The notes beneath the pieces were generated by a model. That model was given only the letters and a program-made list of their open reading frames with translations. It was not told the DNA's origin and searched no databases. The position numbers were made by a program, and so were the translations under genes. Of a stretch of DNA of 64,000 nucleotides, positions 2,761 through 58,309 are shown piece after piece. Origin of the DNA: a virus. Where the stretch lies: positions 90,145 through 154,144 of IMG/VR virus record IMGVR_UViG_3300010401_000032. The stretch is one strand, 5' to 3'. Within the stretch, counting starts at the first letter, position 1; every line of letters begins with the position of its first letter.

Positions 2761-3334
2761 TAAGAAACTCCTCTACGGTAATTACGTTCATGATCTCGTC
2801 GCGATGACGCTTAAAAATGTCCCATGTCCATCCTTCAACTGGGGCAATAAACTTCTGTTCCCACGTAGTGTCATCGCGTCTTATGACCCCACAGCCCCAA
2901 TCAGTATCTATCGTAAACATCTTTAAATCATGTCGCCACGATCTAAGACTTGCGAACGCCTTCCAACAGTCGCCAGTCCAAGGCTGACCGGAAAGCCCCT
3001 CTCTGAGTTGATGCCACTCCTCCGTAGGAAGCATATCGTGACATACTATTATGCCCTGTTCATTAAGAAATGTCAATGAATTAGTGATATCTTTTTGAAC
3101 TTGTTCTGCTAAATGTAGACCATCAATAAAGATTAAGTCATATTTTTGCTTACAATGATTAGCGAAGAACTCATCGGAGGTCATAGTATAATCGCCGCAC
3201 CCATTGGGGTCTACGCCGTGTTTAATAGGCACGTTAATCTGATTAAGAGTTTCGCGACCCAAGACCCCTATCTCAAGATAAGATTTAAAGTCGTATTTAT
3301 CGATAAGATATTTAATTATATCATAACGTTGCAT
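2747..3334 (-). CDS. Class I SAM methyltransferase (Methyltransf_24-like)
   Basis: The 195-residue protein starts with a short helix, then YLEIGVLGRETL (motif I), an acidic HGVDPNG strand, YDLIFIDGLH near residue 85 and IIVCHDMLPT. This combination of FIDGLH and a later HDM is typical of Methyltransf_24 proteins, which often O-methylate sugars. Upstream and downstream neighbours are a GT2 glycosyltransferase and another methyltransferase. The junction with the GT2 gene is TAATG with one shared base. The substrate is not evident from sequence. The small-molecule O-methyltransferase role is an inference from family and context. Confidence 0.8.
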   Translation of the reverse strand: MQRYDIIKYLIDKYDFKSYLEIGVLGRETLNQINVPIKHGVDPNGCGDYTMTSDEFFANHCKQKYDLIFIDGLHLAEQVQKDITNSLTFLNEQGIIVCHDMLPTEEWHQLREGLSGQPWTGDCWKAFASLRSWRHDLKMFTIDTDWGCGVIRRDDTTWEQKFIAPVEGWTWDIFKRHRDEIMNVITVEEFLNGCA

Positions 3335-10535: not shown

Positions 10536-10904
10536 TTAGATTTTGTTCCAAGGTTTAAAATTCTCCAAGAATTCCATAGTGGGGTAAACCCCACTAAAGT
10601 TGATTGCTCGATCGTCAATATAAACTGACGCACCACGCTTAACACATGAGAATGCAAGCTGATCAATTAAATGATTTGGCATTCCATGATCTCTAAACCA
10701 AGCATGAAGGGCGGCTTCTGATTCGCCATGTAACATACGACACGTAAAAATGACTACATGAAAATGTTTTACTGCTTCGCAGAGCCATGCAATAGCCCCC
10801 GGAACGGGCGGATCCGGAAGATATATAGGATCTTCCTGGCTAAATTTTGTTTTGTAGCTATTGATCACGCCATCAAAATCTACGTAAATAACCTTCTTAA
10901 TCAT
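10536..10904 (-). CDS. HAD-superfamily phosphatase-like protein
   Basis: A 122-residue HAD-fold protein. Motif I is YVDFDGVIN (nucleophile Asp9, acid Asp11), motif II is VIFTCRM (Thr), and motif IV is YIDDRAI, giving the metal site. No cap domain is visible, as in minimal HAD phosphatases and the phosphatase half of polynucleotide kinases. In a sugar operon it could remove phosphate from a sugar intermediate, but nucleotide or nucleic-acid 3' phosphate is as likely. It overlaps the upstream gene by ATGA. Confidence 0.75.
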   Translation of the reverse strand: MIKKVIYVDFDGVINSYKTKFSQEDPIYLPDPPVPGAIAWLCEAVKHFHVVIFTCRMLHGESEAALHAWFRDHGMPNHLIDQLAFSCVKRGASVYIDDRAINFSGVYPTMEFLENFKPWNKI

Positions 10905-11161
10905 GATACTCCGGCATCAGTTGTCCAAACTGCTCCAAATAATACATAAACCAAGCCATAGTATCCAGTATAACGAGCCATATGTCTTACGTATCGATCT
11001 GTCGCACTCTGAAAATCGTTACAATTCTTATTCAATTCCTGTATAGTTCTTGGTTCGCGATTTTCAATCTTAATGATATCAAGCCACAACTTTTTACGTC
11101 TATTATTTATCGCTCTTAAGTGTTGAGAACGACGTTTGATTTTACGATAAAACCCAATCAT
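10901..11161 (-). CDS. Hypothetical basic protein
   Basis: An 86-residue protein with a very basic N-terminal half (FYRKIKRRSQHLRAINNRRK) and a C-terminal hydrophobic stretch (YTGYYGLVYVLFGAVW) that could contact or cross a membrane. It lies between a GT4 glycosyltransferase and the HAD gene and overlaps both (20 and 4 bases). No family recognised. The hydrophobic tail raises the possibility of a membrane-tethered accessory in glycan assembly, but this is speculation. Confidence 0.65.
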   Translation of the reverse strand: MIGFYRKIKRRSQHLRAINNRRKKLWLDIIKIENREPRTIQELNKNCNDFQSATDRYVRHMARYTGYYGLVYVLFGAVWTTDAGVS

Positions 11162-12290
11162 AGCACTTCTCTAATTGTTTGTTTACAATACTGGCTTCGA
11201 AATATCTCATGGCTCTTCGCCGGGCAGTACGTCCAAAATAGTCGCGTAGTCTCACGCGATCTGTTTCGTCTTCATTGGCAAACTCTTCGTTAAGAACTAA
11301 TTGCTCAAGAATATCTCTGTATGCAACCCAATCGCCCACTGGCACAACAAAGCCGGCGTCGCCAATAATCTCTGATTGACCGTTATAGATTCCGCTTTCG
11401 TGAGATACTACTGGTAGTCCATGCATCATGGCCTCTTGTATATTACAAGGACAACACTCTCCATCATGACGTGCGTGAGCATAAATGTCAAGTCCCATAT
11501 AGAACTTAGATAAAGCTTGATCGCTTATAATGGGTTCGCCGAATCTTATGTTTTGTATTCCAAGCTTACTGGCACAATCGATCCAGTTCTGACAAGGATT
11601 AATTACTATATACCAAACATTAGGATATCTCTTCTCTACCTCCGCGAAAGCTTTTAATGAGATAGGGTCAAAGTTATCTGGACGGCCAACGCGACCAATG
11701 AGAATTGCATCGTGCGGTATCTTAAACTTGTTCAGTAATTCTTCTCGACATAAATCCTTGTTATCAATAGTCATATCTAGAACTGGTTGTTCTATTGGAT
11801 TATAGATTACTGGACCGACTTCGTTGCCACTAGAAACGGCTCGCTCTTTAATATAATCTGATATATAAATATGTAGGTCTATTTGACTCTCTGGCGTCGT
11901 ATCGTTATAACCAAAGATGTTAGTTTCGACCCACTTGGCTCTTGGAGCCATGTAACGGAATGCTGGCCACTCGTTGTAACCGCTTCTGTGAACATGCACA
12001 ATCTGCGGATCGATTTGCTTTAAAACATCAAATAGATTGTCCTTCTCTGGAAGGTACGGAGATTGGCGACCCTTCTTGCCGGGTTCCCACTGATAGGGAA
12101 TCACCCGATCATTTCCAAGCCAAGAGCGTACAACGTCAAGGCGTTCGTTTGCTGGATCATTATCTCTATAGACAATATATGGATCAAACCTGTCGCTTCG
12201 CGACAGGTACTTGGCGAATAGTTGTGCCGTGCGGTCTGTGCCGCTATAACCAACCGTCTTGGAATGATGTACTACTCGTATTTTGTTCAT
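11142..12290 (-). CDS. Glycosyltransferase family 4 (GT-B fold)
   Basis: A 382-residue GT4-like enzyme. N-terminal half: KIRVVHHSKTVGYSGTDRTA, a GG-type loop variant, and PQIVHVHRSGYNEWP. C-terminal half: DAILIGRVGRPDNFDP opens the donor domain, DIYAHARHDGECC and NIQEAMMHGLPVVSHESG form the GT4 donor-site signature (E-x7-E region, here degenerate at the first position). It is a paralog of the gene at 12474-13580, with shared VGRPDN and DIY-HAR-DGE blocks. Starts by ATGA overlap with the small gene upstream. Confidence 0.88.
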   Translation of the reverse strand: MNKIRVVHHSKTVGYSGTDRTAQLFAKYLSRSDRFDPYIVYRDNDPANERLDVVRSWLGNDRVIPYQWEPGKKGRQSPYLPEKDNLFDVLKQIDPQIVHVHRSGYNEWPAFRYMAPRAKWVETNIFGYNDTTPESQIDLHIYISDYIKERAVSSGNEVGPVIYNPIEQPVLDMTIDNKDLCREELLNKFKIPHDAILIGRVGRPDNFDPISLKAFAEVEKRYPNVWYIVINPCQNWIDCASKLGIQNIRFGEPIISDQALSKFYMGLDIYAHARHDGECCPCNIQEAMMHGLPVVSHESGIYNGQSEIIGDAGFVVPVGDWVAYRDILEQLVLNEEFANEDETDRVRLRDYFGRTARRRAMRYFEASIVNKQLEKCYDWVLS

Positions 12291-12481
12291 ATTTCTGGTA
12301 AGGCTTCTACTTCTTCGTCCGTCATCTCTATAACTTCAATAGTAAAAGAATCACCCACGTAGGGATCATCTTCGTACCAATCGCGGATACAGCTAAATAG
12401 ACCGTCTAAGGTATCGGCATTTAATACGCTCCAATGATCGCCATCTACTAATTCTGGACTGATCCTAAAATACTTAGCCAT
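12287..12481 (-). CDS. Small acidic hypothetical protein
   Basis: A 64-residue acidic protein (pI clearly low: many Asp and Glu) beginning MAKYFRISPELVDGDHWS and ending TDEEVEALPEI. I start at the ATG at 12481, which overlaps the upstream GT4 stop by 8 bases; a TTG at 12508 would overlap more. The gene sits between two paralogous GT4 enzymes. Not recognised. Confidence 0.65.
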   Translation of the reverse strand: MAKYFRISPELVDGDHWSVLNADTLDGLFSCIRDWYEDDPYVGDSFTIEVIEMTDEEVEALPEI

Positions 12482-13580
12482 TGATAACCTCTTCGTAAAT
12501 CTTTTCAAGTTTCTTGACGCAAACGCTTGCTTCGAATTCGGCTTCCGCTTTATGTCTGCCAGCCTCGCCCATTCTGAATCTCATGCCCTGATCATCAATC
12601 AACATCTTTAAAGCTTCTGCATATTCATCGGGATGATTATTAACCACCCAACCTGTCTCGGCAGTATTCACTAAAGTAGTTTGTGCTTGAAATACGCCCA
12701 TTCCTGGAACGCTTGCTCTGGCATAATGCGTAATCACGGGTTTACCATGGATCATAGCCTCGGCAATATTAACGCCGAATGTTTCGCCATCCGCTCTAGC
12801 ATGAGTATATATATCTAAACTATTATAGAAAGTGCTTAAAATTAAAGGATTAGTTGTGGGTTCGACAACGTGAAATGGTATTTCGTACTTGACTAAATCG
12901 TCGATCATGTTACTCGGCGGTGCAACTACGATGAAACGAATATCGTACCCCTGTAGTCGAAGTAGACGAACGGCGTCAACGCTGACCGAATTATATATAC
13001 CATTGTCTGGTCGCCCGCATCTCCCTACTACAGTTGCCCCTTCTTCGTGCCATTGGCTAGCAATTGGAAGAACTGAATCCGCGTATGGCATTTCAACTGG
13101 ATTATTAACAAAGTCAAATCTTGGGTTTGCACCCCTCAAATACATTCTAAGCGAATGATTCATAAGCCATTCACTCATAAAGAGATCGCGGTCTATCGCA
13201 GAATTAGGATCTATAAAGCCAAATACATTAGTAATAACAAAACGAGGAACGGTGATATGTATATTGGGACGCGGGAATTCCGCGTAGCCCGATTGATATA
13301 CGTGCAAAATATCTGGCTTAAAATTATCTATTACCTGCTGTAGTTCGTCGCCATTAACAGAACTTCTATTTTCCCAAGAATTAACTTCGAAAAGCTTGCC
13401 GCCAGAAACACGGGCGGCTTTTTGAAATTCTTCAAGCCTTGGATGTTCGCCGGTCTTTTCAAAGACCACGGCTACTTCAAACTTATCGCTATTCGCGTGT
13501 TCGAAAAATAACTGACACGTCTTCTCCGTACCGCCCAAACCAAGATGACGAAGATAATGCAGAACTTTAATTTTTCTCAT
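12474..13580 (-). CDS. Glycosyltransferase family 4 (GT-B fold), paralog
   Basis: A 368-residue GT4-like enzyme. RKIKVLHYLRHLGLGGTEKT has the GT4 loop LGGTE that positions the acceptor, DILHVYQSGYAEFP follows. The donor half opens with TVVGRCGRPDNGIYN and has DIYTHARADGETFGVNIAEA with the E-x7-E pair (GETFGVNIAE), then AMIHGKPVITHYA. It shares about the same plan and several blocks with the GT4 at 11142-12290, pointing to duplication within the operon and possibly sequential addition of related sugars. Confidence 0.9.
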   Translation of the reverse strand: MRKIKVLHYLRHLGLGGTEKTCQLFFEHANSDKFEVAVVFEKTGEHPRLEEFQKAARVSGGKLFEVNSWENRSSVNGDELQQVIDNFKPDILHVYQSGYAEFPRPNIHITVPRFVITNVFGFIDPNSAIDRDLFMSEWLMNHSLRMYLRGANPRFDFVNNPVEMPYADSVLPIASQWHEEGATVVGRCGRPDNGIYNSVSVDAVRLLRLQGYDIRFIVVAPPSNMIDDLVKYEIPFHVVEPTTNPLILSTFYNSLDIYTHARADGETFGVNIAEAMIHGKPVITHYARASVPGMGVFQAQTTLVNTAETGWVVNNHPDEYAEALKMLIDDQGMRFRMGEAGRHKAEAEFEASVCVKKLEKIYEEVING

Positions 13581-13899
13581 GAAGTTGTCTTCTAAGATAG
13601 CTAACTTCTGCCTCTAGTTCACGAATGCGTTGCTTAGAGGCTCGTGCATGAGCGGATAATATACAAGGATTTATATGTTCGCCAATTGATTGTGTATCAA
13701 CTTCATGATCAAGAGCTTTGGCACGAGATTCCCACTCTAAAGCTTTCTGTTTCTCTAGATGAATCTGAAATTCTAAATGATAGATGACGCTCTCTTGACT
13801 GGCAACTTGCTTGTGAAGATCGGTAACAAGTTCCAATAACTCGTTAGCAACATAACGATACCATTTATATCGCCAACGTGTAAGTTTCTTATAGGCCAC
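13567..13899 (-). CDS. Coiled-coil protein
   Basis: A 110-residue protein. The N-terminus is basic and aromatic (MAYKKLTRWRYKWYRY), followed by heptad-rich segments: NELLELVTDLHKQVASQE, EFQIHLEKQKALEWES and a second coiled coil RIRELEAEVSYLRRQL near the end. Overlaps the upstream GT2 by 11 bases and the downstream GT4 by 14. A scaffold or pairing role in the glycan complex is conceivable; the family is not recognised. Confidence 0.7.
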   Translation of the reverse strand: MAYKKLTRWRYKWYRYVANELLELVTDLHKQVASQESVIYHLEFQIHLEKQKALEWESRAKALDHEVDTQSIGEHINPCILSAHARASKQRIRELEAEVSYLRRQLHEKN

Positions 13900-14704
13900 T
13901 AATCCACTCTTCGCGTTGCGGTAGGTTGTTGAAGTCTCTGAATTCTTTAGCGTGCTTCAAATGACTGTCAAAGTTATGACCAAAAAACTCGGAAATGGCA
14001 GCGTATGTTTCGTAGTTATTGGCTCGTTTGTTACTATTTTCAATGGAATCGGGTCTTTGTGTATAGACCGTAAGCTGCTCCGGAATCGATAGACCGTGAT
14101 AGCCGTTGCTCATAAAGTATAACCAGAGCCAATAATCGAACGCTGACTTGTATTCGGCGGCTCTCTTATCCATTAGCTGCCAATCAAGATCGCGTTTAAA
14201 TTCTGTATTGTTGAGCCACGCAACCTGTGGTCCGCCCCAGCATTCTCGTGTCATAAGCTCAAAGTCGAACTTAGGTTTTAAGCCACGTCCAATCAGTTGT
14301 TTCTTTTCATTAATGACCGTCATGCCGCCATAACAGAATCCTATTTTGGGACCGTTATATAGTGGACTCTGAATGAACTTTAAATACTTGTGTACAATTT
14401 CTGTGGTGCGAGGATCGTGAAAATCATCGGTATTCGAGTTCATAACAAACTCGCCCTTGGCACATCTCCATGCACGCAACCAAGACGCTCCGTACGGCTC
14501 GCGTTTCGGCCAATAGACATAATTGACGCGACTATCTATCTCTGCCCATTTCTGGGCTATCGGTCCATCAGCACCGGGCGAATCGGGATTAACAACAACG
14601 ATTTCAAAATCTGGATCGGTTTGTCTTTCAAGCAAGTCAGCAATATGCTCATCCAAGAAATGAGCAGAATCATAGGTTGATACAAGATAAGAAAGCTTAG
14701 GCAT
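13889..14704 (-). CDS. Glycosyltransferase family 2
   Basis: A 271-residue GT2 enzyme. The N-terminal half reads PKLSYLVSTYDSAHFLDE, LLERQTDPDFEIVVVN, GASWLRAWRCAKGEFVMNSNTDDFHDP, in which NTDD occupies the DxD site. The acceptor half contains KSAFDYWLWLYFMSNGYHG, consistent with the ExDxW-type region of GT2. No transmembrane segment is seen, so it works in the cytoplasm on a soluble or membrane-bound acceptor. Overlaps its neighbours by 8 and 11 bases. Confidence 0.87.
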   Translation of the reverse strand: MPKLSYLVSTYDSAHFLDEHIADLLERQTDPDFEIVVVNPDSPGADGPIAQKWAEIDSRVNYVYWPKREPYGASWLRAWRCAKGEFVMNSNTDDFHDPRTTEIVHKYLKFIQSPLYNGPKIGFCYGGMTVINEKKQLIGRGLKPKFDFELMTRECWGGPQVAWLNNTEFKRDLDWQLMDKRAAEYKSAFDYWLWLYFMSNGYHGLSIPEQLTVYTQRPDSIENSNKRANNYETYAAISEFFGHNFDSHLKHAKEFRDFNNLPQREEWISGL

Positions 14705-15713
14705 TTACGACCATTCCGTTATGATAATGACTCATGTGCGGTTGAGACTGTCGGGACATGCAGAGCCAAATGTTTCCCCATTCTTCATTTTTCAAAACCT
14801 TAGAATAGAATTTATCGTCTTCCCAACCAAGACTGGCCGCCGTAGGATTTTCACAATGTATAAATCTAGGATGCTGTTTCATGATTTCTGGATGCTCACC
14901 GCTAAAAGCTAAAACTGGCTCGGTATCTGCGAACCAATCTTTGACTTTCTGATCAAACTTTTTATTTGCGGCCCCATGGCCCGCAAGTTCTTTTTCGTAG
15001 TACTCTTGCTTAGTTTTCATTATTTCATTCATATTCGAACGTGCATATCCATAATGATATATGAAAAAATTATTCAACATAACTCTACGATGTTGATAGT
15101 GCGGTGAAAAATAAGTACAGTGTCCAGCCGGATCAGTTGCAACAGGATGACTATTATATTTCATGCCTCGAACGTACTTAAATATACGTTGATGCTGAGG
15201 TTGCCATTCAGGACCCGGCACAGCTACGTGCCAAAAATCTCTATAGAAATGTAAAAAATTAGGGACAAACTCGCATGCCGCAGGATTAAGATCTATAGCT
15301 TTTCGTAAGCGACGAATATCCTCAGGGCGATAAAATTCATCTGCGTCATTAATAATGATCCAATCGCCAGGAAGAGAAATATCCAGAAATGTTTGTTTCA
15401 TTTCCTCAAGATTCTTCCATGGTTTCCTAATAGATATCAATGTTAGTTTTTGATCTGGATCGTGATTAGCTTTAAAATCATTGATGATTTCGATTGTACG
15501 ATCTGTCGAATGTCCATCTGGCGTTGAATTAGGACGATTCTGCACCGCCCCTTCGATCACTATAATCCTATCTACTTCATTATAGATGGACGCAAGCGTT
15601 AAGCCAATGAATTCTTCTTCGTTGTGGGCTTGAATACACTGAACTAGACGGGCAGGTTTATTAACCCGTTCGGCTATACACTTCATTTGGCTTTCGTAAT
15701 AGATTTGATTCAT
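14697..15713 (-). CDS. Glycosyltransferase family 2 (large form)
   Basis: A 338-residue GT2-related enzyme. ARLVQCIQAHNEEEFIGLTL, EVDRIIVIEGA, TDRTIEIINDF and DWIIINDADEFYRPED (DADE as DxD) follow the WaaE-like or SPBc2-like GT2 layout. The rest is a His- and Tyr-rich acceptor domain (YFSPHYQHRRVMLNNFF, IYHYGYARSN). It overlaps the preceding GT4 by 4 bases and the following GT2 by 8 bases. Donor unknown. Confidence 0.85.
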   Translation of the reverse strand: MNQIYYESQMKCIAERVNKPARLVQCIQAHNEEEFIGLTLASIYNEVDRIIVIEGAVQNRPNSTPDGHSTDRTIEIINDFKANHDPDQKLTLISIRKPWKNLEEMKQTFLDISLPGDWIIINDADEFYRPEDIRRLRKAIDLNPAACEFVPNFLHFYRDFWHVAVPGPEWQPQHQRIFKYVRGMKYNSHPVATDPAGHCTYFSPHYQHRRVMLNNFFIYHYGYARSNMNEIMKTKQEYYEKELAGHGAANKKFDQKVKDWFADTEPVLAFSGEHPEIMKQHPRFIHCENPTAASLGWEDDKFYSKVLKNEEWGNIWLCMSRQSQPHMSHYHNGMVVNA

Positions 15714-16969
15714 AGTGATTCCTCAATGCTCGCCGCTACGGCACCTTCTTTTTTATCGTCAAAACGTACTACGCCAGTAGCTTTCCATGATTCATGAGCA
15801 GAGATCAACTGTTCTGTTACTTTTGATGCAATAGTTCTATAATCAAACTTGTTACCAACCATCATGGCATTTTGTTGTTTTTGTAATACGGCTTGCCACT
15901 CTTTTAGATTAGCCTCGTTTAACTGACCTTCGGCAGCACCTTTCTTTAAAAGGTAGAATCTCTGCATAACCATTGACATCTCGGCGACGGAAGGTTCAAA
16001 ACACTGTTCTAAGCCAGTGAATAATCCTGGATCTCCGTGGGGCATGTCGTAAAAGAAAGACGCACAGCCGTTATAAATTAATGCGTTTTGCGTGCTAACG
16101 AAATCTTGCAAGCCGGTTTTATCATGTGAAATAACCGTCTTACCGTGGGCCAGGGCATCGAATACCGGTATGCCCCAACCTTCTGATCTACTTGAACAAA
16201 CGTACGCATCACCTCTAGCATGTAAGCTTTGAATATCTTCGTCTGACATAGTTCCTATCAATGGAAGAACCGGCGGGAACTTGTTTGTCGGTATACGGGT
16301 TTTCATTTTGACATTTTCGATATAGCTCTTAACGTGAGTTAAATCGTTTTGTCTGTCCTGCATACTAATGTAGGTCTTTAAAACTAAGAGAACGTCGTCG
16401 GGCACACTAGAGAATGCCGCGTAATATGCCCGCAGCAAAAGATCTATTCCCTTTTTCGTGCTAAGTTGACAAATATTATAGAATATTGTTCTATTACCAG
16501 CATTCTTAATTTCAAATGGCTGGTACTTCTTTTTGTAAATATCATTATCGCATGGCGGTGCCGCAACAAGAATGGGGCGTCTTATGCCAGATCTCAATAA
16601 AGTTTCAGCATTAAAACGTGACGGCACAATGAGAAAGTCAAAACTCTGTGCTGTTTGTGCCCAAGACGGCTGTAATCTGTCCGTTTCAAAGAATGTATAC
16701 AGTCCATTAACGACACCTGGAATTGGAACCGCTTCCACATTACAGGTGGTCATTTGAGTTACAATATCAACATTCAAAAGATCTTTTTGTAGATGCGGAG
16801 CCATCCATTCCGGTATATCAAAAGATTGTCCGTTGTCAAGACGATCGTACTTTAATGGACGAGCTACCACGTCTAATCTTTCGTCTTGCTTTAGCATGCG
16901 TAAAAAATTACGCGATACTGTTGCAAATCCGGAGAAATCAAATAACGGACCTGTAAATAGAAGTTTCAT
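15710..16969 (-). CDS. Glycosyltransferase family 4
   Basis: A 419-residue GT-B enzyme. The N-terminal half begins KLLFTGPLFDFSGFATVSRN, the loop that replaces the GG motif. The donor half has RTIFYNICQLSTKKGIDLLL, then YVCSSRSEGWGIPVFDALAHGKTVIS, where the E-x7-E pair appears as E-x7-D. A C-terminal extension rich in Lys and Ala (AEGQLNEANLKEWQAVLQKQ) follows. It lies one base after the stop of the larger GT4 gene and may act on the product of it. Confidence 0.87.
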   Translation of the reverse strand: MKLLFTGPLFDFSGFATVSRNFLRMLKQDERLDVVARPLKYDRLDNGQSFDIPEWMAPHLQKDLLNVDIVTQMTTCNVEAVPIPGVVNGLYTFFETDRLQPSWAQTAQSFDFLIVPSRFNAETLLRSGIRRPILVAAPPCDNDIYKKKYQPFEIKNAGNRTIFYNICQLSTKKGIDLLLRAYYAAFSSVPDDVLLVLKTYISMQDRQNDLTHVKSYIENVKMKTRIPTNKFPPVLPLIGTMSDEDIQSLHARGDAYVCSSRSEGWGIPVFDALAHGKTVISHDKTGLQDFVSTQNALIYNGCASFFYDMPHGDPGLFTGLEQCFEPSVAEMSMVMQRFYLLKKGAAEGQLNEANLKEWQAVLQKQQNAMMVGNKFDYRTIASKVTEQLISAHESWKATGVVRFDDKKEGAVAASIEESL

Positions 16970-16970
16970 A

Positions 16971-18773
16971 TTAGACGAACTCTTGTTGATTCTGTGCTTG
17001 TGATTGTTGTATACCGGCCGCTTGTTTTCTCATTTGATCTCTAATCTTGGAGCCGTCCGACTGTTGATTACCGATGGCAACAAACTGGGCCATAAGCTGC
17101 TCTCGCGTGATCCCCATGCTAAGATGCTCAACCCAAGTTTTTGCACCATTTGGATCTACAGCGGGATATTTCAAAACGTTCAAATATAGCCAATCTACAT
17201 ATTCTTCATTATTAAGATTCGGCGGAATTGGAAGTGCTGCAACTGTATTCACTTCGGAGATTGGACTATCCCACGTCTGAGAACGATCGAGCGGCTGAAC
17301 ATTATCCAATACATATTCCCATTGTTGGAATAATTTATCCCAGTCATAGTTATCGACAACGCATTGATAGGCTTCCTTTGACAGTTCTGAAAGCTTCTCT
17401 TTATTAGAGATCATTTCAAACATCTTGTCTGCCAAATCTTCGATGTCTGGGTGAGCACGCTTGCAACTTGTTTCTGCTTCGTAGTAATAACGACCGACAT
17501 CAATAACATCGCCACCCTTATTGCAGGTGTAGTTATCTTTCGTAATGTCCATTTCTTTAAAGTGATCGTAGTTTGGATAACGGCCCTTCTCACGCATGGC
17601 GGTGTAATCTGTAGCCAGCGTTGGCACTCCGCAAGCTTTCGCCTCTTGTATCGGCATACCATCACCTTCGCATATAGAGCATTGAACATATAAATCCATC
17701 ATGCTATACAGCTTTGCCAATGTTTCTCTATCAAAGCCAATGCTGGTACTGGGCGGCGAAGCATCAATCTTATTGCAGTGCGGACAAGGTAACTTAATTC
17801 TACCTTCTTCTATGGGTTTTTTCCACAGATTCATTGCGTATGTAACAGACGGCTCTTTGCACGAATGACAGTGCATAGATTGTAGAATACTACCTCTAAT
17901 GCCCTTATTATAATACGGCATCCAGTCATGTGTTTCAAGACGCATGATGTGTCTAGGATAATCGTAAGAGTGTACGTTATCTGGCCAAGACGAGTGTATG
18001 AGGAGGGTGGCCTTGTCTACAATCTCATTACCCTTATACTTAGCTTTCATACGAGAAAAACCGTCGATAAGATCTGGATAAAGTTTACGAGATTGATTTC
18101 TCATAACAGTACCAATAACTGTTATTTCTTTATTGAGATTCCAGAAGTCTCTTACTTCTTTTTTATCCATTGGCTTGAAAGTACTAAGGTCTACTCCCGG
18201 TCGCATAGGCTTAGGGAATATCTTCATCTTTCTTTTGCCAGTTGGCAACACCTGACTTTGACGACGCAAAGCGTGAACGCCGTAATCAGAATAAGCCAAA
18301 ACTAAGTTGGCATTTTCATAAGTCTCAATCCACTCTTCCGCTTGTGGTTCTGCGTCCACTGTTGGCATAATAATCCATTTAAACCAAGGGCGGAAAGCGT
18401 TTCTCTCTTCGAATTCCAACATCCAAAAATCTCTAATATCAATAACGATATCGGGCTGAAAATCTAATAGAACGGCATTAAGTTTGTATTCGCCGAATTG
18501 GTTTGTCATTTGTCCGCGAGCACGTGGATGGGGACAGTTCTGCCCGAACACGGACGCTTCCTGTTGATTGGTCGGAAGCACACCATAAAATTTCCAACGA
18601 CCATTTATAAATGATTGAACACGAGGATCGTTTTGATGTGCGTAAGATCCTAACTCTGCAATTTCATATTTGCCGGTTGCAGCAAGCCGTGGTAATAATT
18701 CTCTGTAATATGTCGAGAATCCAGTATTAAGGAAGCTAGCTTCACCTATAAACAGAATGCGTTTTTTGCTCAT
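16971..18773 (-). CDS. GT4 glycosyltransferase with zinc-ribbon insert and DUF4214 tail
   Basis: A 600-residue multidomain protein. Residues 1-190 form the acceptor half (KKRILFIGEASFLNTGFSTY). Residues 200-490 form the donor half with ITVIGTVMRNQSRKLYPDLI and CSICEGDGMPIQEAKACGVP (E369 and E377, the E-x7-E pair). An insert holds two CxxC pairs (C302/C305 and C330/C333), a likely zinc ribbon. Residues about 523-570 (EYVDWLYLNVLKYPAVDP, then GITREQLMAQFV) match the DUF4214 repeat found on secreted and glycan-associated bacterial proteins. The tail is Gln-rich. It is the first gene of the glycan block, ATGA-coupled to the sigma gene, suggesting an early step of assembly. Confidence 0.85.
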   Translation of the reverse strand: MSKKRILFIGEASFLNTGFSTYYRELLPRLAATGKYEIAELGSYAHQNDPRVQSFINGRWKFYGVLPTNQQEASVFGQNCPHPRARGQMTNQFGEYKLNAVLLDFQPDIVIDIRDFWMLEFEERNAFRPWFKWIIMPTVDAEPQAEEWIETYENANLVLAYSDYGVHALRRQSQVLPTGKRKMKIFPKPMRPGVDLSTFKPMDKKEVRDFWNLNKEITVIGTVMRNQSRKLYPDLIDGFSRMKAKYKGNEIVDKATLLIHSSWPDNVHSYDYPRHIMRLETHDWMPYYNKGIRGSILQSMHCHSCKEPSVTYAMNLWKKPIEEGRIKLPCPHCNKIDASPPSTSIGFDRETLAKLYSMMDLYVQCSICEGDGMPIQEAKACGVPTLATDYTAMREKGRYPNYDHFKEMDITKDNYTCNKGGDVIDVGRYYYEAETSCKRAHPDIEDLADKMFEMISNKEKLSELSKEAYQCVVDNYDWDKLFQQWEYVLDNVQPLDRSQTWDSPISEVNTVAALPIPPNLNNEEYVDWLYLNVLKYPAVDPNGAKTWVEHLSMGITREQLMAQFVAIGNQQSDGSKIRDQMRKQAAGIQQSQAQNQQEFV

Positions 18774-19375
18774 TTTATCTTACTCTTAATATTTCTTTCA
18801 ATCATATATACGTTATTAACCGAAATACTTAATCTCTTTGCTACTATAGAGGCCGAAACATTACCCAAAATTCTATCCTGTAAAATAGTCTTTTCTTGAG
18901 TGGTCTGTGCCGCTTCTTCTAAGATTGTTTGTATATCTTCTGACGTATGACATTCGATAGATTCCTCGTCTATACATGAAGACTGTTTTCTACTATACGC
19001 CAATCGAAGATCCTTAACGTGCTGAATATCAATAGTCTTCTTTAATCGGTCGCTTAAAATATCAACTATCTCTTCGTCTGACTTACCATCATTTGCCAGC
19101 CTATTGACTTTAGAAGCTAAGTTCGTAGTTCGATGATCTACTGTAAACACGCCAAGAAATCTGCCGGCCTCGTGATATATTTCCTGTTTAACTAGGCGAG
19201 AAACAAAGGATTTAATATTGGATCCACAAGACGGATCATATTCCTTAATAGCTCTTAACGCAGCGATTCTACCTATCTGGTAGAGGTCATTAATATCTAT
19301 TGCGGCAGAAGAGAAGCATGCCGAACGTGCAATATGATTTATTAATGGAATATAGGCTTCTAGTACATCTACCAT
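18770..19375 (-). CDS. RNA polymerase sigma factor, sigma-70 family
   Basis: A 201-residue sigma-like protein. Residues 1-75 match region 2: LINHIARSACF, then DINDLYQIGRIAALRAIKEYD and SFVSRLVKQEI, the core-binding and -10 recognition helices. The C-terminal 40 residues (NVSASIVAKRLSISVNNVYM) resemble region 4 helix-turn-helix. It would redirect host RNA polymerase, most likely to phage late promoters. It has its own sigma70-like promoter, with the -10 six bases before the ATG, so the mRNA is probably leaderless. Its target could be the TTAGTGTATT element in the late region; that link is inferred. Confidence 0.88.
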   Translation of the reverse strand: MVDVLEAYIPLINHIARSACFSSAAIDINDLYQIGRIAALRAIKEYDPSCGSNIKSFVSRLVKQEIYHEAGRFLGVFTVDHRTTNLASKVNRLANDGKSDEEIVDILSDRLKKTIDIQHVKDLRLAYSRKQSSCIDEESIECHTSEDIQTILEEAAQTTQEKTILQDRILGNVSASIVAKRLSISVNNVYMIERNIKSKIK

Positions 19376-19409
19376 AATTACATTATTGCAATTTTACACA
19401 AAACGTCAA
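19376..19409 (-). promoter_or_regulatory. Sigma70-like promoter for the sigma gene, predicted leaderless
   Basis: On the minus strand: TTGACG (19404-19409), 16 bases, AATAAT (19382-19387), 6 bases, then the ATG of the sigma gene. The predicted start site falls on or next to the ATG, leaving no room for a ribosome-binding site. The geometry is identical, base for base in spacing, to the promoter at 30071-30104. The -35 box overlaps the last codons and stop of the upstream gene. Confidence 0.75.
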
Positions 19410-19615
19410 GATTTTTTCTTGGTTTTTTTCTCGCGTTTAAACCACATATATGGCACTGAAAAAGGATAGAGCGGCTCCCATCCTTCTTTAGCTTTCTTAT
19501 TAGCGAGATCAACCACCATAGAATTAACATCGTCTATTTTGGCAAGTCCCATTTGTATCATCTGCTTCTGATCGTCACTTAATGGAAGTGACTCAAAGCT
19601 ATATTCGTATATCAT
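19406..19615 (-). CDS. Small hypothetical protein (DUF4177-like tail)
   Basis: A 69-residue protein. The C-terminal part ANKKAKEGWEPLYPFSVPYM, followed by WFKR and a Lys-rich end (EKKTKKKS), has the look of DUF4177-type small proteins, where an aromatic GW motif precedes strands. It starts by ATGA overlap with the stop of the DNA polymerase gene. Function unknown. Confidence 0.68.
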   Translation of the reverse strand: MIYEYSFESLPLSDDQKQMIQMGLAKIDDVNSMVVDLANKKAKEGWEPLYPFSVPYMWFKREKKTKKKS

Positions 19616-29618: not shown

Positions 29619-30070
29619 GCCGGGTGATCATTGATGATTATGGCAGGATCACCTTTCACGTAGGGTCGAATTTCGTGCTTTATATTTCCAGACTCGGAAA
29701 CCCACGTAATAATAACTTCTAAGCCCTTAAGATAGCCTATACCACGTTCTTGACCCTCAAATATTCCCTGGTCACACAATAGAACGCCGATAGACTTACT
29801 GTGCCAATATCCGTTAATCTGCGGAGTTTTATCTGGACCACGATACGGAAGTAAAACTACTTGACAGCCGTATGCTTCTAAACGAAGATTGGTTAACTTA
29901 AGATTGTGAATCTTGACATAATCGCTAAGTCTTCTCCACGCGGAGACTTCTCCAGGTGTCACGTCTTCGAAAACTGTAGTGCCATCAGATAAAGAAGCTA
30001 TCCATCGACTTGCAGTCGGATCTTCGTTAGGTTTAGGTACATACGGATGTTTAGACGTAAAGACTAACAT
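29615..30070 (-). CDS. Hypothetical protein, first gene of the replication operon
   Basis: A 151-residue protein, beta-rich in pattern (LKLTNLRLEAYGCQVVLLPY, GYWHSKSIG). Its ATG sits 6 bases after a good -10 box, so it should be read from a leaderless mRNA. It begins a 30-kb run of coupled genes. No family recognised; the opening MLVFTSKHPYVPKPNEDPTA is not diagnostic. An early function is suggested only by position. Confidence 0.68.
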   Translation of the reverse strand: MLVFTSKHPYVPKPNEDPTASRWIASLSDGTTVFEDVTPGEVSAWRRLSDYVKIHNLKLTNLRLEAYGCQVVLLPYRGPDKTPQINGYWHSKSIGVLLCDQGIFEGQERGIGYLKGLEVIITWVSESGNIKHEIRPYVKGDPAIIINDHPA

Positions 30071-30104
30071 ATGAGCATTATGACACGAAAGACTAAAATG
30101 TCAA
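30071..30104 (-). promoter_or_regulatory. Sigma70-like promoter of the replication operon, predicted leaderless
   Basis: On the minus strand: TTGACA (30099-30104), 16 bases, CATAAT (30077-30082), 6 bases, then the ATG at 30070. -35 is a perfect consensus; -10 matches at 5 of 6. The start site would fall at the ATG. The spacing is the same as for the sigma-gene promoter at 19376-19409, which argues that both are real and use the same start mode. Confidence 0.8.
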
Positions 30105-30106: not shown

Positions 30107-30129
30107 AAAAAGGCGGGGATAACCCCGCC
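30107..30129 (-). terminator. Rho-independent terminator after late operon
   Basis: A perfect 7-bp GC stem (30112-30118 with 30123-30129) with a 4-base loop, followed on the minus strand by five T. It ends the late transcript after the last virion gene and separates it from the replication-operon promoter, whose -35 begins only a few bases on. Confidence 0.85.
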
Positions 30130-30151: not shown

Positions 30152-30685
30152 TTATAGGAATTCTAATTGCATGTAATAGCCGAAATTCGTCTTACGGCCG
30201 GCGGCCGTAGGTGAACCGCTTATAAGTAAATGATAGTCGTGAACGTGTGCTCCGATTGCCTGATCATTTAGACTCATAACCGCACCGGCAGAAGAAATCT
30301 CTGACCAAGCTGCGTCGGCCGAATTTCCAGATGTGTCTCTTAATTGTGCTGCCTTGACTGTGATACCAGTTGCCAAGCTACCAATATTTGGTACACCGGA
30401 ACCAGCATCAAAGTTCACCGCTCTAAAGGTAGCATTCTGTGTTACAACGGCGGTTCCATTAGGCTCCGTGAATCTGCAAAGCAATGTACCGGACTCTCGT
30501 GGTATATTGGCAAATCCACCTGTAAATGGAACCCCAGAGTTTTCCACGCTAGAGGCACCGGTAAATTTGTTGTTGACCATTTGCCCGAGGTTCGCACCTA
30601 GATAATCTGTTCTAAAAGTACGATCCTGGTACTGTCCAACAATAACAGCACTATTCGGAGCACCATTAACTCCGAAGAAGCCCAT
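30152..30685 (-). CDS. Small virion or tail-fibre-associated protein
   Basis: From the ATG at 30685 the protein is 177 residues, rich in Gly, Ser, Thr and Ala. The second half (GTLLCRFTEPNG, AHVHDYHLLISGS, FGYYMQLEFL) resembles the two paralogs at 42128-42778 and 42965-43522, which carry matching FVYLNI- or YVYLAV-type strands and a final aromatic strand. The open frame continues upstream of this ATG to base 30856 without any ATG, GTG or TTG, so the true N-terminus is probably longer (see next entry). It is the last gene before the terminator. A minor tail-tip or fibre role is inferred. Confidence 0.6.
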   Translation of the reverse strand: MGFFGVNGAPNSAVIVGQYQDRTFRTDYLGANLGQMVNNKFTGASSVENSGVPFTGGFANIPRESGTLLCRFTEPNGTAVVTQNATFRAVNFDAGSGVPNIGSLATGITVKAAQLRDTSGNSADAAWSEISSAGAVMSLNDQAIGAHVHDYHLLISGSPTAAGRKTNFGYYMQLEFL

Positions 30686-33008: not shown

Positions 33009-36000
33009 TATGCAAATCTAAAGAGAGCACCCTTGACTATTTCTACGAAGCTTACTGTACTTGTTTGTCCGAATCCACCGCTAGGTACTGTATTAACCGT
33101 TGTCAAAAATCCTCTATCTCCTGATACTGCGAATTCTCTAAATGGCACGGGAATAACATTTGGGTATAATTGTCCGGAAGCTATACTAAATCTGCCGTCG
33201 GCCCCTATACCAAGTTCTTTACATAATGCTACGGCAGTTGGCAGCCCTTGTTCGACAACGCTAATAATTTCAACGGGAGTTACTCCAGCACCAGCTTGTT
33301 GAACTGTGCTTGTAATAAAGATTCTGTCGTTGCTGGCCCCAGGGGATACCGGTGCGTCTCCTTGAACCGCCAAAACAGTTTTATCGCCAACGTTAACAGT
33401 TCCATTGAGAACAGAAACGCCCAAGATGGCACGGTTGACCCCAAGTGTCGCTAGTGTTGTAGGGTCAACAATAGTAACGTCATATTTACTTGAATCAAAT
33501 CCGTTTACTTGGTTAACAAATACGATCGTTCCGTTGCCGAATGGGCGACCTTGAGTGAAGTATCTTAAGATAATATTGCCGTCCGGCAATTCAAAGTCGT
33601 CGGTATGATACATGGCTTCGTCACTAATGTTCAAGAAGCCGTCTATGCAAATTGCTCCGTCAACGAAGTCTGGGTTAGAAGAGTCAAATGCATGTGGTGG
33701 TTTTGTATAACCATGCTGATCGATACCACGATAGCGTTCAGGTTCTTCGGATCCAGGAGCACTGCCTAATGTGAATATATTGTTAACTTCGTTAACAGTT
33801 ACACGAACGGCCTTTTCATCCCTGTCAAAGAATAGAGGCGGGAAGAATGGATCACCTGGTAATAGTGGATCTGCCGGAGGACCAGGATTAGGATCAAGTA
33901 ATGATAGATCTGTAAAATCTATAGGATTCAAAATGCCGTTTAAGTGAGCACGAACACGTTCGCCAAGCGGGGCATCGCGTCCAAACTTCGGGAAGTAAGA
34001 CTGGATCTTATATCTTGTTAAGAATCCATCAATACCAAAGCTAATATTCAGTTCATTAACACCGTGACTGATCTCTCCATATAGTCCTGAAGGACCAATA
34101 TTTTGTTCGGCAAAAGCATCGAATGAAAGTACAGGTAGTCCTACTTGCTGAAAATCTGCATATCTAGAAGAACTGCGAGGAACTATCTTGCCCTCTACTC
34201 GACGAATGGCACGATCCGACATTACTTGTAATGAGGTCTGATTACCCTCGGGAGAGAACGCCCATGGCACGAATTGATCGTCTAGTTGAACGTCTTCGTC
34301 ACGCTCGTAATGTAAGTCTCCCAAAACCCATTGGCTAGGATATGCTTGACCATAGCGGCTACGAGATTCTATTGGAATTGCAACGCCGGAAAGTGAATCA
34401 TACACATTAAGAATAATAGATGGATTAATAATATCTAATAGCCCGGAACCGGCGAGCTTGTTTTGAATATTAATTAATGTTGCTAGCTGGCTAATAACGT
34501 TATCTTCGACAAGTCCGCCTGAGGGTCCTGCATTAACCGGCAATTGACAAAGAACAGTACCTTCCGGATAATCTTCGAATGAATAGAGTTCGTCGCTTCT
34601 AGGATTGATAACTCGATTACCGACTAACGACAGGTCTACCGGTATATAGTGTTCGCCAGATCCGTTTGGATTAAATGGAGGTGCATCTTCGGTCCAATTG
34701 CCGAAGCTGGCAGGACTATCATCGCCTTGCGGGCCATAAATAGTAAATGCCGGAAGCTTGCAGTAGGCTCTTACTCTAAAATCATCTGTCACGAATGGGC
34801 TTACGGGACCCAATAGTTTATTAATTTCATAGTCGTCAACATAAACTCCGCTGCCGCCATTGACAACAACTCCAGAAGAAGACAGTTTATAGCCTTCAAC
34901 CTGATTTTCAATATTTGCCCAGGCCGCGTCAACTAAACGGAATAGACCAGAAGCTTGATTAAATAATAGTCCTTCGGCGACATATGAACGCCCATAGTGT
35001 CTAGACGAGTGATCACGAACTCTATTATAGTATGCGATCGTCCAGTTTTGATCTTCGTCGCGACGATTGTTAATAACACGAATACCGGATGCTTCATTAC
35101 CGCCACCGAGTGCGGAAAGCGGCATGAGTGGGTCTAATCTACTTTGGAAACTAGGATCTTGAGCGGCTATAGATCCTTCGTCTGGTGGTAATCCATATCC
35201 TGTTGGCGTACCACTTGGGTCAGCACTTTGATAGATCTTAAAATAGGTCCACTGTTCAATGCCAGCAAGTGCAAGCTGTAGTTCTTTTTCGGTTGGTTTA
35301 TATGTACGATAGAAGCCGCCAGCATCATAGAAACCAATTGTAAGCTTGGACCATGCCGGATAAAATATTAATTGTATTCCGCTTGCCTGAGTATTAAGGT
35401 CAACAATACCATCCAAGCCAAAAGTATCAATCCCGTCTATGGGGCTTAGAATGTTTGAATTTATAAAGCCCTCTTGGTGGCCGCCGATAACTCTAAATCT
35501 AGTTGGATCGGGAACAACGTCCTGCCCGAAACCAAGCTGAGTTGTTTCATTGAGTCCGCTAGCACTACCGAATTCAGAAACTAAATCCAGAATGTCCGTT
35601 TCTGATATATCGAATACGGCCTTCTTATTGACAAGGTTGATCTTCTGTGCGTCCATATTCCAATACCAGTCGTATCCAGTATCGAATAATACGCGAGTTA
35701 TAACCTCGTCAAATGTATTAAGATTAAATTGGAATCTTAGGGCTTCTGACGTGCCATCAATGTTTTTTTCGATCTGTGCGACCGTAGGCAAATCGGCAAT
35801 AGGGAACGCACATTTGTTTTCATTAAAATGAAGGTCTATAGCCGTTAATATTTGGCTGTATGTTCCGCCGAATTGTAATATACGCTTATATTCTTGTATA
35901 TTAGAATCAATCGTTCCATTAATATCCGTTAGACCATTAACAATTCTAAATGCACGGGCTATAGATATGACTCCACTAGGGGCGTCCTCACTCAAGTCCT

Positions 36001-41815: not shown

Positions 41816-41825
41816 AATACACTAA
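41816..41825 (-). promoter_or_regulatory. TTAGTGTATT element before adhesin operon
   Basis: Exact decamer on the minus strand, followed by TTC. It is partly inside the terminator: its TTAG is the last part of the hairpin. A transcript started here would begin just after the terminator, about 40 bases before the 154-residue gene with its good binding site. Confidence 0.45.
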
Positions 41826-42121: not shown

Positions 42122-42131
42122 AATACACTAA
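42122..42131 (-). promoter_or_regulatory. TTAGTGTATT element before 61-residue gene
   Basis: Exact decamer on the minus strand, followed by ATT. It contains the TAG stop of the 216-residue gene and lies about 60 bases before the ATG of the 61-residue gene. Same placement as at 30915. Confidence 0.5.
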
Positions 42132-42778
42132 CCGCCAAATTCGTGGAATACGTCATTTAGCCAATAATTAAAGACTAATGCTAGTCTTAGAAGCCCAGAA
42201 CCACACACGCCGAAAGAACCGAGCGGAGTGCCGAGCGGGACAACAATGTTTAAATAAACGAATTCTGACGAATTCAAATCGTCTTGTGCTACTATACCAG
42301 CCGTACCATCTTGTCTAAAAACATTCTGTTTGCTTGGAACGGTCCTCGGAATACGGGCAACCGAGCCGGAAGGCAGACTTAAATTATATCTCCAAATATT
42401 ACCGCTTGGAGCATACTGCATAAATGCCCTATCTAGTCCCTGATCTTGGCTAGCTTGAAAAGCACTATCGTCCGTTAGGAACAACCTTAGATCCGAGATA
42501 GCTGTACCGCTCGCGGCAAGATTAAATGTTATGGCAGTTGGCTTAGAAGCTAGATGAGATGGCACCGGTAATGTAGTTAAATCGAATTTTGTATTTTCAA
42601 ATAGTAATGTTCCAGAAGTAGTTCCAGGTCTGAGTGGATTTGCCATCATACAACCAGAAGCGACCATCTGCTTGAATGCAAATGATCCGCCCGCTATATG
42701 ACGAGTTCCGATAGGACTTGCTGGCTCGCCAGTATCCCACTCAAAAATTCTAATTACTGGAAAATCTCCACCGGCCAT
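42128..42778 (-). CDS. Tail or fibre protein, paralog A
   Basis: A 216-residue beta-rich protein. FPVIRIFEWDTGEPASPIGT opens it; DLRLFLTDDSAFQ, FVYLNIVVPLGTPLGSFGVCG and LRLALVFNYWLNDVFH follow. The same order of strands is seen in the 185-residue gene at 42965-43522 and in the gene at 30152-30685, so these three are related. It has an extra C-terminal NDVFHEFGG. Role inferred as minor tail-tip or fibre component from position after the distal tail protein. Confidence 0.7.
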   Translation of the reverse strand: MAGGDFPVIRIFEWDTGEPASPIGTRHIAGGSFAFKQMVASGCMMANPLRPGTTSGTLLFENTKFDLTTLPVPSHLASKPTAITFNLAASGTAISDLRLFLTDDSAFQASQDQGLDRAFMQYAPSGNIWRYNLSLPSGSVARIPRTVPSKQNVFRQDGTAGIVAQDDLNSSEFVYLNIVVPLGTPLGSFGVCGSGLLRLALVFNYWLNDVFHEFGG

Positions 42779-53431: not shown

Positions 53432-54850
53432 TTAGATACCTAGAGTAGAACGCTTAAATGGCGGGCATCCTACGTTGAAGCGACTGTTACCAGTTGCGAA
53501 CACAATAATTCTATGGTTCGGTTGGAAGAAGTCGTGTGAAACGTTGAATACGTTGAAGCTAGAGTAGTTGTAAGTAACAGTCATACTGTCACCGCCAGCT
53601 TCGCCACCACCTGTTTCTGTGCTGACTAGACGATTAGCATCGCCAAGGTCAACCTGCATACCATCGCAAGTACGAATGATAATCGTATTCGATGCTGTCG
53701 TATTGTCATGTCCTCTGCAACAGTCGATTGCAGATGTTGCATCAACCAAGTCACCCTGAGCGGTAACAACTTCAATTGATGTAGTTGCTTCTAGAGGGAA
53801 TGCAGGAGCTTTGAAGTATGGACGCTTAGATCCAAGTTCGAAGATGTCATTTCTAGAAATTGCGAACGATACTGTAATCGTCTGAATGTGTTCAGCGATG
53901 AAGTCAGTATTCGCATTAGCAATCAATTGTTGAGTACCGGCTAGAGTACCAGGGCCTTGAGCACCGAAGCCACCGTTAACGAACGCGGCGTCGATACCTG
54001 AGACTGATGGTGCAATAACGCCAGGGATGTCGTTAGGTAGAATCGAACGACTAATTTCAACTTCTTCACGACGTTGAATACCAGAGCCTACAACGATGAT
54101 ACCGAAACGATCTTCGCCACCGGCAGTTTCAGCGGCACCACCCTCAACTAGTGCTGAGGTATTGCCGTCGTGTCCGAACACGCCAGAAGGAGTTCCTTCG
54201 GGGGCTTCGGGGTTGTTGCCGTCTTGATCATCGGGCCAAACGACGATTGGGTCTGCGGGACTTCCGCCGTTATTACCGGCAGTAACACCAGACACCGCAA
54301 CCATAACGCCCCAGAGCTTGTCATTACCAACTAAAGTAATGTCTTCTGTTACGAAGCCGTCAATTGGGAACGTGTAAGAAACGTTTGATACATACATACC
54401 GGAAGCTGTACAAATAGATTGTGGCTTGCCGGTTGCACGGAATTTTGTATCCGGATAAATTTCTAAAGCAATATCAACACGGTATGCGGCAGTACGAGCA
54501 ACGATGTCGTTTGCACCCGCCGGATTTGTTACCATAAAGAAGAGTGGTTTACTACCGTCAATTGCCTTCGATAGAGATACTTCAATATCGGGCTGACGTT
54601 CTGAGTACTCGTAAAGCTCTACTTGACCAATTTGGAAAACTTGTTCCAAGTTGAAAGTCGTAGTCATACTCATGCTTTGAAGACCACGCGGCACTTCCCA
54701 TAGACCATTAACTTGATCAACACCTGAGGCGAGCGGACCCGTGCTAAACTCTCTCGAATTTGCGGGTGCTACAGCCCCAGTGGGCGGTGCAGCATTATCT
54801 TTAATGGCAATCTGTTCGATTGCCCAGAAGACGCGATTATTATTAGCCAT
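53432..54850 (-). CDS. Major tail tube protein, probable
   Basis: A 472-residue protein between the connector genes and the tape measure. TTTFNLEQVFQIGQVELYEY and RQPDIEVSLSKAIDGSKPLF match the pattern of large tail-tube proteins, with strands in the order expected of the tube beta-barrel. A middle insert rich in Gly, Asp and Asn (residues about 190-260) is probably an exposed domain. A strong GGAGGG site precedes the ATG, and the gene has its own upstream TTAGTGTATT and a downstream terminator, as expected for an abundant protein. A tail sheath is the alternative, less likely. Confidence 0.65.
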   Translation of the reverse strand: MANNNRVFWAIEQIAIKDNAAPPTGAVAPANSREFSTGPLASGVDQVNGLWEVPRGLQSMSMTTTFNLEQVFQIGQVELYEYSERQPDIEVSLSKAIDGSKPLFFMVTNPAGANDIVARTAAYRVDIALEIYPDTKFRATGKPQSICTASGMYVSNVSYTFPIDGFVTEDITLVGNDKLWGVMVAVSGVTAGNNGGSPADPIVVWPDDQDGNNPEAPEGTPSGVFGHDGNTSALVEGGAAETAGGEDRFGIIVVGSGIQRREEVEISRSILPNDIPGVIAPSVSGIDAAFVNGGFGAQGPGTLAGTQQLIANANTDFIAEHIQTITVSFAISRNDIFELGSKRPYFKAPAFPLEATTSIEVVTAQGDLVDATSAIDCCRGHDNTTASNTIIIRTCDGMQVDLGDANRLVSTETGGGEAGGDSMTVTYNYSSFNVFNVSHDFFQPNHRIIVFATGNSRFNVGCPPFKRSTLGI

Positions 54851-54923: not shown

Positions 54924-54933
54924 AATACACTAA
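54924..54933 (-). promoter_or_regulatory. TTAGTGTATT element before tail tube gene
   Basis: Exact decamer on the minus strand, followed by ATC, starting right after the TAA of the 341-residue gene and about 73 bases before the tail-tube ATG. It precedes a weak hairpin, so transcripts from here would carry a structured leader. Confidence 0.5.
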
Positions 54934-57426: not shown

Positions 57427-58281
57427 TTAATATATCATCTTTCCAAAGTTGCCGGTCATACGGCTTAAGAAGGCTTTTATAGCCGCTTCTAATTCATTGC
57501 GTCTTTGGGTCGCGTCGAACTTGTGCAGATCGGATCTAAATCCAAGACGCGAAGACGAAATAGTAACTGTCACGCCATCGGCGTTAGTAACGGAAATGCC
57601 ATCTTGTCCGACTGACGTACTGAGACCGTCTATTGCCATCAATCTCTTAAGGGCACTGATTTCGCTTTCAAGTATAATAACTTCCATTTGCATAACAACT
57701 AGATCGCAAATTTCGTCGTTATTTGGAGTGATCGTGCCAGCTTCGGGATCGGCAATAATTGGGAATACTTTAATGCGTGGGCCGCCGAAACCACCAGGAA
57801 TACCCTGAGGACGAGAAGTTGGAGAAAGTCCGAGTCTTTGATTAAGTCTTCGAACTGCCTTAACGAGAACTCTTTGTAAGAATTCATCATTAAATATTAC
57901 GCCTGCCGCATCGCCAATGTCTATACGAACTGCGTCATATATGGCACTCGTTTTATCTTCGGGGGGATTGAATCCTATGCTTACAAGCACGTCTTGCACA
58001 ACGAACGTCTCAGAGGCTTTAACTAGGCTATCTAGTAGCGTAATGATAGTCCAATCAACGTGCCATAAACCTAACTGAAATCCAGCAGGAATAATACCCG
58101 AGCCAACATAATGTCCTAATGCTGGATTTAAAGCAACTCCACTAACGGCCGAGGCGTTAGAGGCGTCGAATAATTCAAATCCAACGTATTTTCCACTGAC
58201 AGATGCACCATTAGCGGATAAGAATATATCCAAAGCAGAAGCATCTTGACCAACAGTTAAAACTTTGCTTTCTCCAGACAT
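57427..58281 (-). CDS. Head-tail connector or adaptor-like protein
   Basis: A 284-residue protein immediately after the capsid gene. The N-terminal 100 residues form a beta-type domain (GKYVGFELFDASNASAVSGV) and the rest is helical with FNDEFLQRVLVKAVRRLNQR, in line with connector adaptors of the gp6/gp15 type that carry helical bundles. Strong TTAGGAG site before the ATG. A GTAGTGTATT element and the capsid terminator lie upstream. Confidence 0.6.
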   Translation of the reverse strand: MSGESKVLTVGQDASALDIFLSANGASVSGKYVGFELFDASNASAVSGVALNPALGHYVGSGIIPAGFQLGLWHVDWTIITLLDSLVKASETFVVQDVLVSIGFNPPEDKTSAIYDAVRIDIGDAAGVIFNDEFLQRVLVKAVRRLNQRLGLSPTSRPQGIPGGFGGPRIKVFPIIADPEAGTITPNNDEICDLVVMQMEVIILESEISALKRLMAIDGLSTSVGQDGISVTNADGVTVTISSSRLGFRSDLHKFDATQRRNELEAAIKAFLSRMTGNFGKMIY

Positions 58282-58299: not shown

Positions 58300-58309
58300 A
58301 ATACACTAC
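58300..58309 (-). promoter_or_regulatory. GTAGTGTATT element after capsid terminator
   Basis: One mismatch to the decamer. It is followed on the minus strand by CCTTATTAGGAG and then the ATG, 18 bases after the element. It lies just behind the capsid-gene terminator, as expected for a promoter that restarts transcription of the connector genes. Confidence 0.5.

Follow-up and report, generated by a model that had tools for sequence, protein, structure and literature searches.

A predicted leaderless sigma70-type promoter before a phage sigma-factor gene, and the promoter class to which it belongs

Introduction

In the DNA window analyzed here, which spans 64,000 bases (positions 90145-154144 of a 161,114-base (161-kb) virus record that may be incomplete), the gene for a phage-encoded sigma-70-family protein is preceded by a short sequence that resembles a bacterial promoter and runs directly into the start codon. 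This locus raises the question of whether the sigma gene and the glycosyltransferase-like genes behind it have a promoter of their own, which form of RNA polymerase would read it, and whether its transcript would begin with the start codon itself. In Actinobacteria and Deinococcus-Thermus, leaderless genes are frequent (about 20% or more; PMC3160421, PMC12340547). Among phages, the cI and cro genes of PY54 were found to be leaderless by RACE, and lambda cI likewise, as cited in the same paper (PMC4488713); a study of Cluster O mycobacteriophages, e.g., Corndog, gives 8-9 predicted SigA promoters, three of them predicted with +1 at the start codon (PMC4351075), and in one transcriptome paper phage transcripts are described as often leaderless (PMC5312081). 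The leaderless mode itself is already known, in bacteria and in a few phage genes. We propose that the site before the sigma gene is most probably a leaderless promoter of host-sigma70 type, one of a class shared with related phages, that feeds the sigma and glycosyltransferase genes, the phage sigma factor then serving a second kind of promoter with the motif TTAGTGTATT.

Anatomy of the predicted promoter

The sequence at this site, read on the minus strand from 19409 to 19373, is TTGACG TTTTGTGTAAAATTGC AATAAT GTAATT ATG, with a spacer of 16 nt and a discriminator of 6 nt (Table 1). The original prediction had described the arrangement TTGACG-N16-AATAAT-N6-ATG before the sigma gene and named no strand; we confirm it on the minus strand. 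The two hexamers are near TTGACA/TATAAT, their spacing of 16 nt falls within the 16-18 nt of sigma70-type promoters, and they match the consensus at 10 of 12 positions, TTGACG and AATAAT each being one base off. In addition, TGn precedes the -10 element both here (TGC AATAAT) and at the only other site of this pattern in the window, the promoter at 30071 (TGT CATAAT). A 16-nt spacer with a 6-nt discriminator is ordinary sigma70 geometry; the oddity of the 19.4-kb site is the start codon positioned at +1, rather than the spacing. Bacterial RNA polymerase initiates about 7 nt past the -10 element, preferably with a purine at +1 that is preceded by a pyrimidine at -1. The predicted +1, after an offset of 6 nt, is the first base of the ATG, and the base in front of this A is a T, in keeping with transcription from a pyrimidine-purine step.

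The assignment of the start codon is firm, and no Shine-Dalgarno motif precedes it. The frame is closed upstream by a TAA seven codons before the ATG, and the start cannot be moved downstream: residue 6 is already the first of sigma region 2, and the nearest in-frame alternative start is codon 76. The protein matches the Pfam profile of region 2 above the cut-off (E 5e-9) and that of region 4 below it (E 0.04), while a match to the PHROG 351 sigma family (E 3e-10) spans residues 5-201 of its 201 residues. We infer that host sigma70 would read the site, the extended -10 compensating for the non-T first base of the -10 element. The first transcribed base would then be the A of the ATG; with this +1, the mRNA would therefore be leaderless and translatable without a Shine-Dalgarno sequence.

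Table 1. Coordinates in the window of the predicted promoter elements, genes and motifs
Feature	Position	Strand	Remarks
-35 element TTGACG	19404..19409	-	bases 19406-19408 (TGA) double as stop of the upstream 69-aa gene
Spacer, 16 nt	19388..19403	-	3' end TGC (extended -10, TGn)
-10 element AATAAT	19382..19387	-	
Discriminator GTAATT, 6 nt	19376..19381	-	final T precedes A of ATG
Start codon ATG, predicted transcription start	19373..19375	-	+1 = A at 19375
Sigma-70-family protein, phage-encoded, 201 aa (ORF)	18770..19375	-	region 2, residues 6-69; weak region 4, residues 159-199
69-aa protein, no known function	19406..19615	-	directly upstream of the sigma gene; conserved in relatives
Genes behind the sigma gene	10536..18773	-	
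Six glycosyltransferase-like proteins	16971-18773, 15710-16969, 14697-15713, 13889-14704, 12474-13580, 11142-12290	-	
Sister promoter TTGACA-16-CATAAT-6-ATG	30068..30104	-	head of the replication block
Strong intrinsic terminator GGCGGGG-TTAT-CCCCGCC-TTTTT	30107..30129	-	directly upstream of the 30071 promoter; z -4.4
Late-type motif TTAGTGTAT	41817..41825	-	41 nt before 154-aa gene; leader AGGAG
Late-type motif TTAGTGTAT	42123..42131	-	before 61-aa gene; leader AGGAG
Late-type motif TTAGTGTAT	54925..54933	-	before 472-aa gene 53432-54850; leader GGAGG
Late-type motif TAGTGTAT, G in front	58301..58308	-	before 284-aa gene 57427-58281; leader AGGAG

Tests against chance

The pattern TTGACR-N16-NATAAT-N6-ATG is matched twice in the window, whereas 100 dinucleotide shuffles produced no match (mean 0.00). 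The second match is the 30071 promoter, whose element lengths had been described as equal to those before the sigma gene; read from 30104 to 30068, it indeed has 16 and 6 nt. Under a promoter model trained on related phages only, with a threshold score of 14, the whole record contains 17 sites scoring at least 14, against 1 in the reversed sequence and 0.3 per shuffled genome; the 19.4-kb site, with a score of 14.3, ranks last among the 17. A short AT-rich gap could mimic a promoter, and single sites may arise randomly: a looser pattern search of the window returned two more matches (3042-3076, minus strand; 34544-34581, plus strand), both within coding sequence, which look like chance. The 19.4-kb site, however, stands exactly at a true gene start and in the only gap of its gene block; in view of this position and of the shuffled sequences, we regard a chance resemblance as very improbable here.

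The claim that two independent sites with the same unusual spacing make chance unlikely thus holds in part: the lengths are equal and the shuffles contain no such site, whereas the spacing itself is that of ordinary sigma70 promoters. Nor is the site best described as an independent replicate of one peculiar spacing; it is rather a member of a class in which the spacer measures 16-17 nt and the ATG follows the -10 element at an offset of 5-9 nt, and it shares the geometry and score of the sites in related records.

A predicted leaderless promoter class in related phages

The exact pattern TTGACN-N15..17-TATAAT yielded 63 sites in the record and ten relatives, with 1 match to the reversed pattern. 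An ATG lies 4-9 nt past the -10 element in 43 of the 63, with an offset peak at 6, compared with 0 of 18 sites in 15 unrelated phages (T4, P1, SPO1, MD18, Mx1, Stills, S-CBWM1, lambda, T5, phiKZ, N4, SPBc2, Felix O1, FBB1, and f2b1; Fisher 7e-8). After the removal of duplicates, 37 of 58 sites in seven records have an ATG at offsets 5-9 (binomial 2e-27); TTG occurs twice and GTG never at these offsets, and exactly 6 nt is the commonest value (17 sites). In E. coli, AUG is by far the favored start codon for leaderless translation. A common leaderless start mode, which had been suggested from the two window sites, is thereby supported across 11 records, and the proposed search of the remaining genome turned up many leaderless sigma70-type promoters, both elsewhere in the record and in related ones. 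For the pattern and the class as such, a chance origin was rejected on the basis of the shuffles, the reversed sequence and the unrelated phages.

The number of leaderless-class gene starts is about 7-18 per genome. Most of the promoters of the record lie within its first 60 kb, amid small genes and tRNAs, and some occupy open intergenic stretches of the early region. From the consensus and the locations of the sites, it can soundly be inferred that early genes would be transcribed via host sigma70. The class is common to a group of tailed phages of about 150 kb, in which it would chiefly serve early and regulatory genes.

The bases around the start codons carry a second signature. Gene starts were called mechanically as the longest ATG ORF, and 84 of them were assigned to the leaderless class by a score blind to the base at -1. 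That base is a pyrimidine at 75 of the 84 starts (C 55, T 20), compared with 637 of 1333 other starts (48%; C 324, T 313; Fisher about 1e-14). Shine-Dalgarno motifs are depleted in the leaderless class (8/84 vs. 381/1333 at the other starts). Both features fit transcription beginning at the A of the ATG.

Conservation of the site and relatives of the phage

Searches of viral contigs with the sigma protein found no relatives; with the neighboring DnaE-type polymerase as query, we identified 15 loci with 54-73% identity. No DNA-level relatives were found among named phages, and the terminase shares only some 24% identity with those of the best-covered named phages. The junction before the sigma gene varies among the relatives. 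In L014, the sister lineage (DnaE tree support 96/95), the sequence at this junction is TTAACA-16-TATAAT, followed by 12 nt to the ATG and therefore by a short leader; L019 and L026 have a promoter-like -10 element and a leader carrying GGAGG; in L020 and L022, the genes overlap and there is no promoter; and an SSB-like gene intervenes in L015-L018, L021, L025, L027 and a contig from a Hydrogenophaga bin. Conservation at the orthologous site was thus not found in these relatives, some of which have a promoter-like sequence of another geometry there and others no promoter. At the level of sequence, it is the class that is conserved and not the single 19.4-kb site. The rIIA-type gene, for which orthology in the relatives is by length and position, is apparently leaderless in two records and has a leader of 40-56 nt in three.

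The Hydrogenophaga-bin contig, a close relative to which the IMPDH gene led, is a 157,945-base phage contig (L029/G011:C4) binned in a Hydrogenophaga metagenome-assembled genome; its identity to the window phage is 71% for DnaE and 68% for IMPDH. In a sample of 300 genomes of Hydrogenophaga's order, the same contig is the sole DnaE match of >37% identity among the matches listed. Its bin is a weak hint to the host, or a binning error, and we leave the host open because binning is weak evidence. Matches to NAMPT and RIIA were dropped as host pointers, being too widespread.

Predicted own promoter and possible read-through from the replication block

The sigma gene belongs to a minus-strand block of 22 genes (30070 to 10536, 19.5 kb), in which all junctions but one overlap or are separated by 1 nt. 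The sole gap measures 30 nt and is filled by the sigma-gene promoter. This anatomy, with six glycosyltransferase-like proteins encoded behind the gap, supports the claim that the sigma factor and the glycosyltransferase block have a promoter of their own. Read-through from the 30071 promoter could also reach the sigma and glycan genes, as we found no terminator at the 19.4-kb junction.

The promoter might therefore be real but act as a minor booster, the sigma gene being translated chiefly from replication-block read-through and the geometry of the site following from its packing into 30 nt. The sigma gene indeed stands at the end of a gapless stretch led by the 30071 promoter, with no terminator found before it, and several relatives have no promoter at all at this junction. 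Yet the only gap of the block is precisely here, and a read-through mRNA would have no Shine-Dalgarno sequence before the sigma ATG; moreover, packing alone fails to explain the geometry, because the class also occurs in open intergenic early regions. We consider a minor role possible, if on the whole doubtful, and prefer the reading that the 19.4-kb promoter would supply a transcript of the sigma and glycosyltransferase genes besides the read-through from the replication block.

A probable second promoter motif at structural genes

A k-mer comparison of intergenic upstream regions revealed 37 occurrences of TTAGTGTA against 1.4 expected. The fuller motif TTAGTGTA[TC]T has 47 matches, compared with 6 in the reversed sequence, and 44 of the 47 are within 110 nt of a gene. 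A Shine-Dalgarno sequence is present in 32 of these 44 genes, a frequency far above that of the leaderless class (8/84; Fisher 4e-13). In seven related records (L010-L013 and relatives), TTAGTGTATT precedes structural genes, the leaders of which usually contain a Shine-Dalgarno sequence, and the motif recurs before counterpart genes across records, e.g., before a portal-type gene of this record and of five relatives (804-822 aa). We therefore regard TTAGTGTATT as a probable late promoter. One further late-type motif, TTAGTGTATTATTAG at window position 30924 on the minus strand, lies about 230 nt before gene 30152-30685 and would give an unusually long leader.

The position of the 19.4-kb element directly before the sigma gene, together with its slight departures from consensus at -35 and -10, could be taken to indicate that the phage sigma factor itself recognizes the element and so regulates its own gene in place of the host sigma70 holoenzyme. 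The element, however, matches the sigma70 consensus and a class spread across the early region, and the quite different TTAGTGTATT at structural genes is a better candidate for the phage sigma; autoregulation of this kind is accordingly improbable. We favor recognition of the 19.4-kb site by host sigma70, after which the phage sigma would bring RNA polymerase to the structural genes via their TTAGTGTATT promoters. Under these assignments, early genes would probably depend on host sigma70 and be expressed from leaderless mRNA, and late genes would have a different promoter, probably read by the phage sigma.

In T4-like and SPO1-like cascades, early genes are read by host sigma70, and a phage sigma redirects the polymerase to a short late motif. 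The layout proposed here, with host sigma70 early and the phage sigma late, would be the same. The late motif is TTAGTGTATT here but TATAAATA in T4, and the early class of the present phages is leaderless. Tentatively, and with rather less than even confidence, we suggest that this phage group splits expression by promoter and by translation mode: the early genes, transcribed via host sigma70, would be leaderless, the late genes would have Shine-Dalgarno leaders and TTAGTGTATT promoters read by the phage sigma, and the sigma gene itself would be leaderless. If so, changes in ribosomes or initiation factors during infection could move synthesis from early to late proteins.

Comparison with known leaderless genes

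As in the present class, bacterial leaderless genes, including those with the -10 motif of Deinococcus-Thermus (PMC12340547), have their Pribnow box about 12 nt ahead of the start codon, which is itself at +1, and lack space for a Shine-Dalgarno sequence (PMC3160421). The difference is that here most consensus promoters of a phage group are arranged in this way; they have a full TTGAC -35 element and stand beside a second class with leaders. The cI gene of lambda and the cI and cro genes of PY54 (PMC4488713) are likewise regulatory genes of phages whose transcripts begin at the A of the ATG; they are one or two immunity-switch genes of temperate phages, whereas the present phages have about 7-18 such gene starts per genome. 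Cluster O belongs to a different phage group, with only three promoters predicted to be leaderless and no counterpart of the late motif noted in the available text (PMC4351075). The literature, as far as it was covered, contained no description of a phage group with a leaderless main consensus layout beside a leadered late class. Such a group would be a natural system for asking whether phages use two translation-initiation modes for timing. In practical terms, the promoter class flags early genes in unculturable phages, and leaderless-class starts will be misplaced by gene callers built around a Shine-Dalgarno sequence.

Repeats and tRNAs near the early promoters

Inverted repeats of 6-8 bp, with a sequence differing from site to site, were observed in the spacer or around the -35 and -10 elements of 11 of the 58 deduplicated early promoters, against 2.1 expected and a maximum of 6 among 300 shuffles (for instance, G000 17581-, 18965- and 22402+ (L008/L009), G003 61663-, and G010 40700+, 38634+, 16322- and 2179-). 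These repeats could be operators or structures. The 17-bp palindrome of Cluster O differs in being one repeated sequence and in lying mostly away from promoters (PMC4351075). In one relative (G005:C1), a leaderless cassette is repeated in four near-identical copies with small changes, TTGACG-AGCCGCGAGAATAATG-TATAAT-TGAAGC-ATGAAAAC, at 5214+, 6346+, 138215- and 140439-. Finally, the about 20 phage tRNAs include one with a CTA anticodon (L010:2685-2761, record 42285-42361), called as tRNA-Pyl by ARAGORN, which is a possible amber suppressor.
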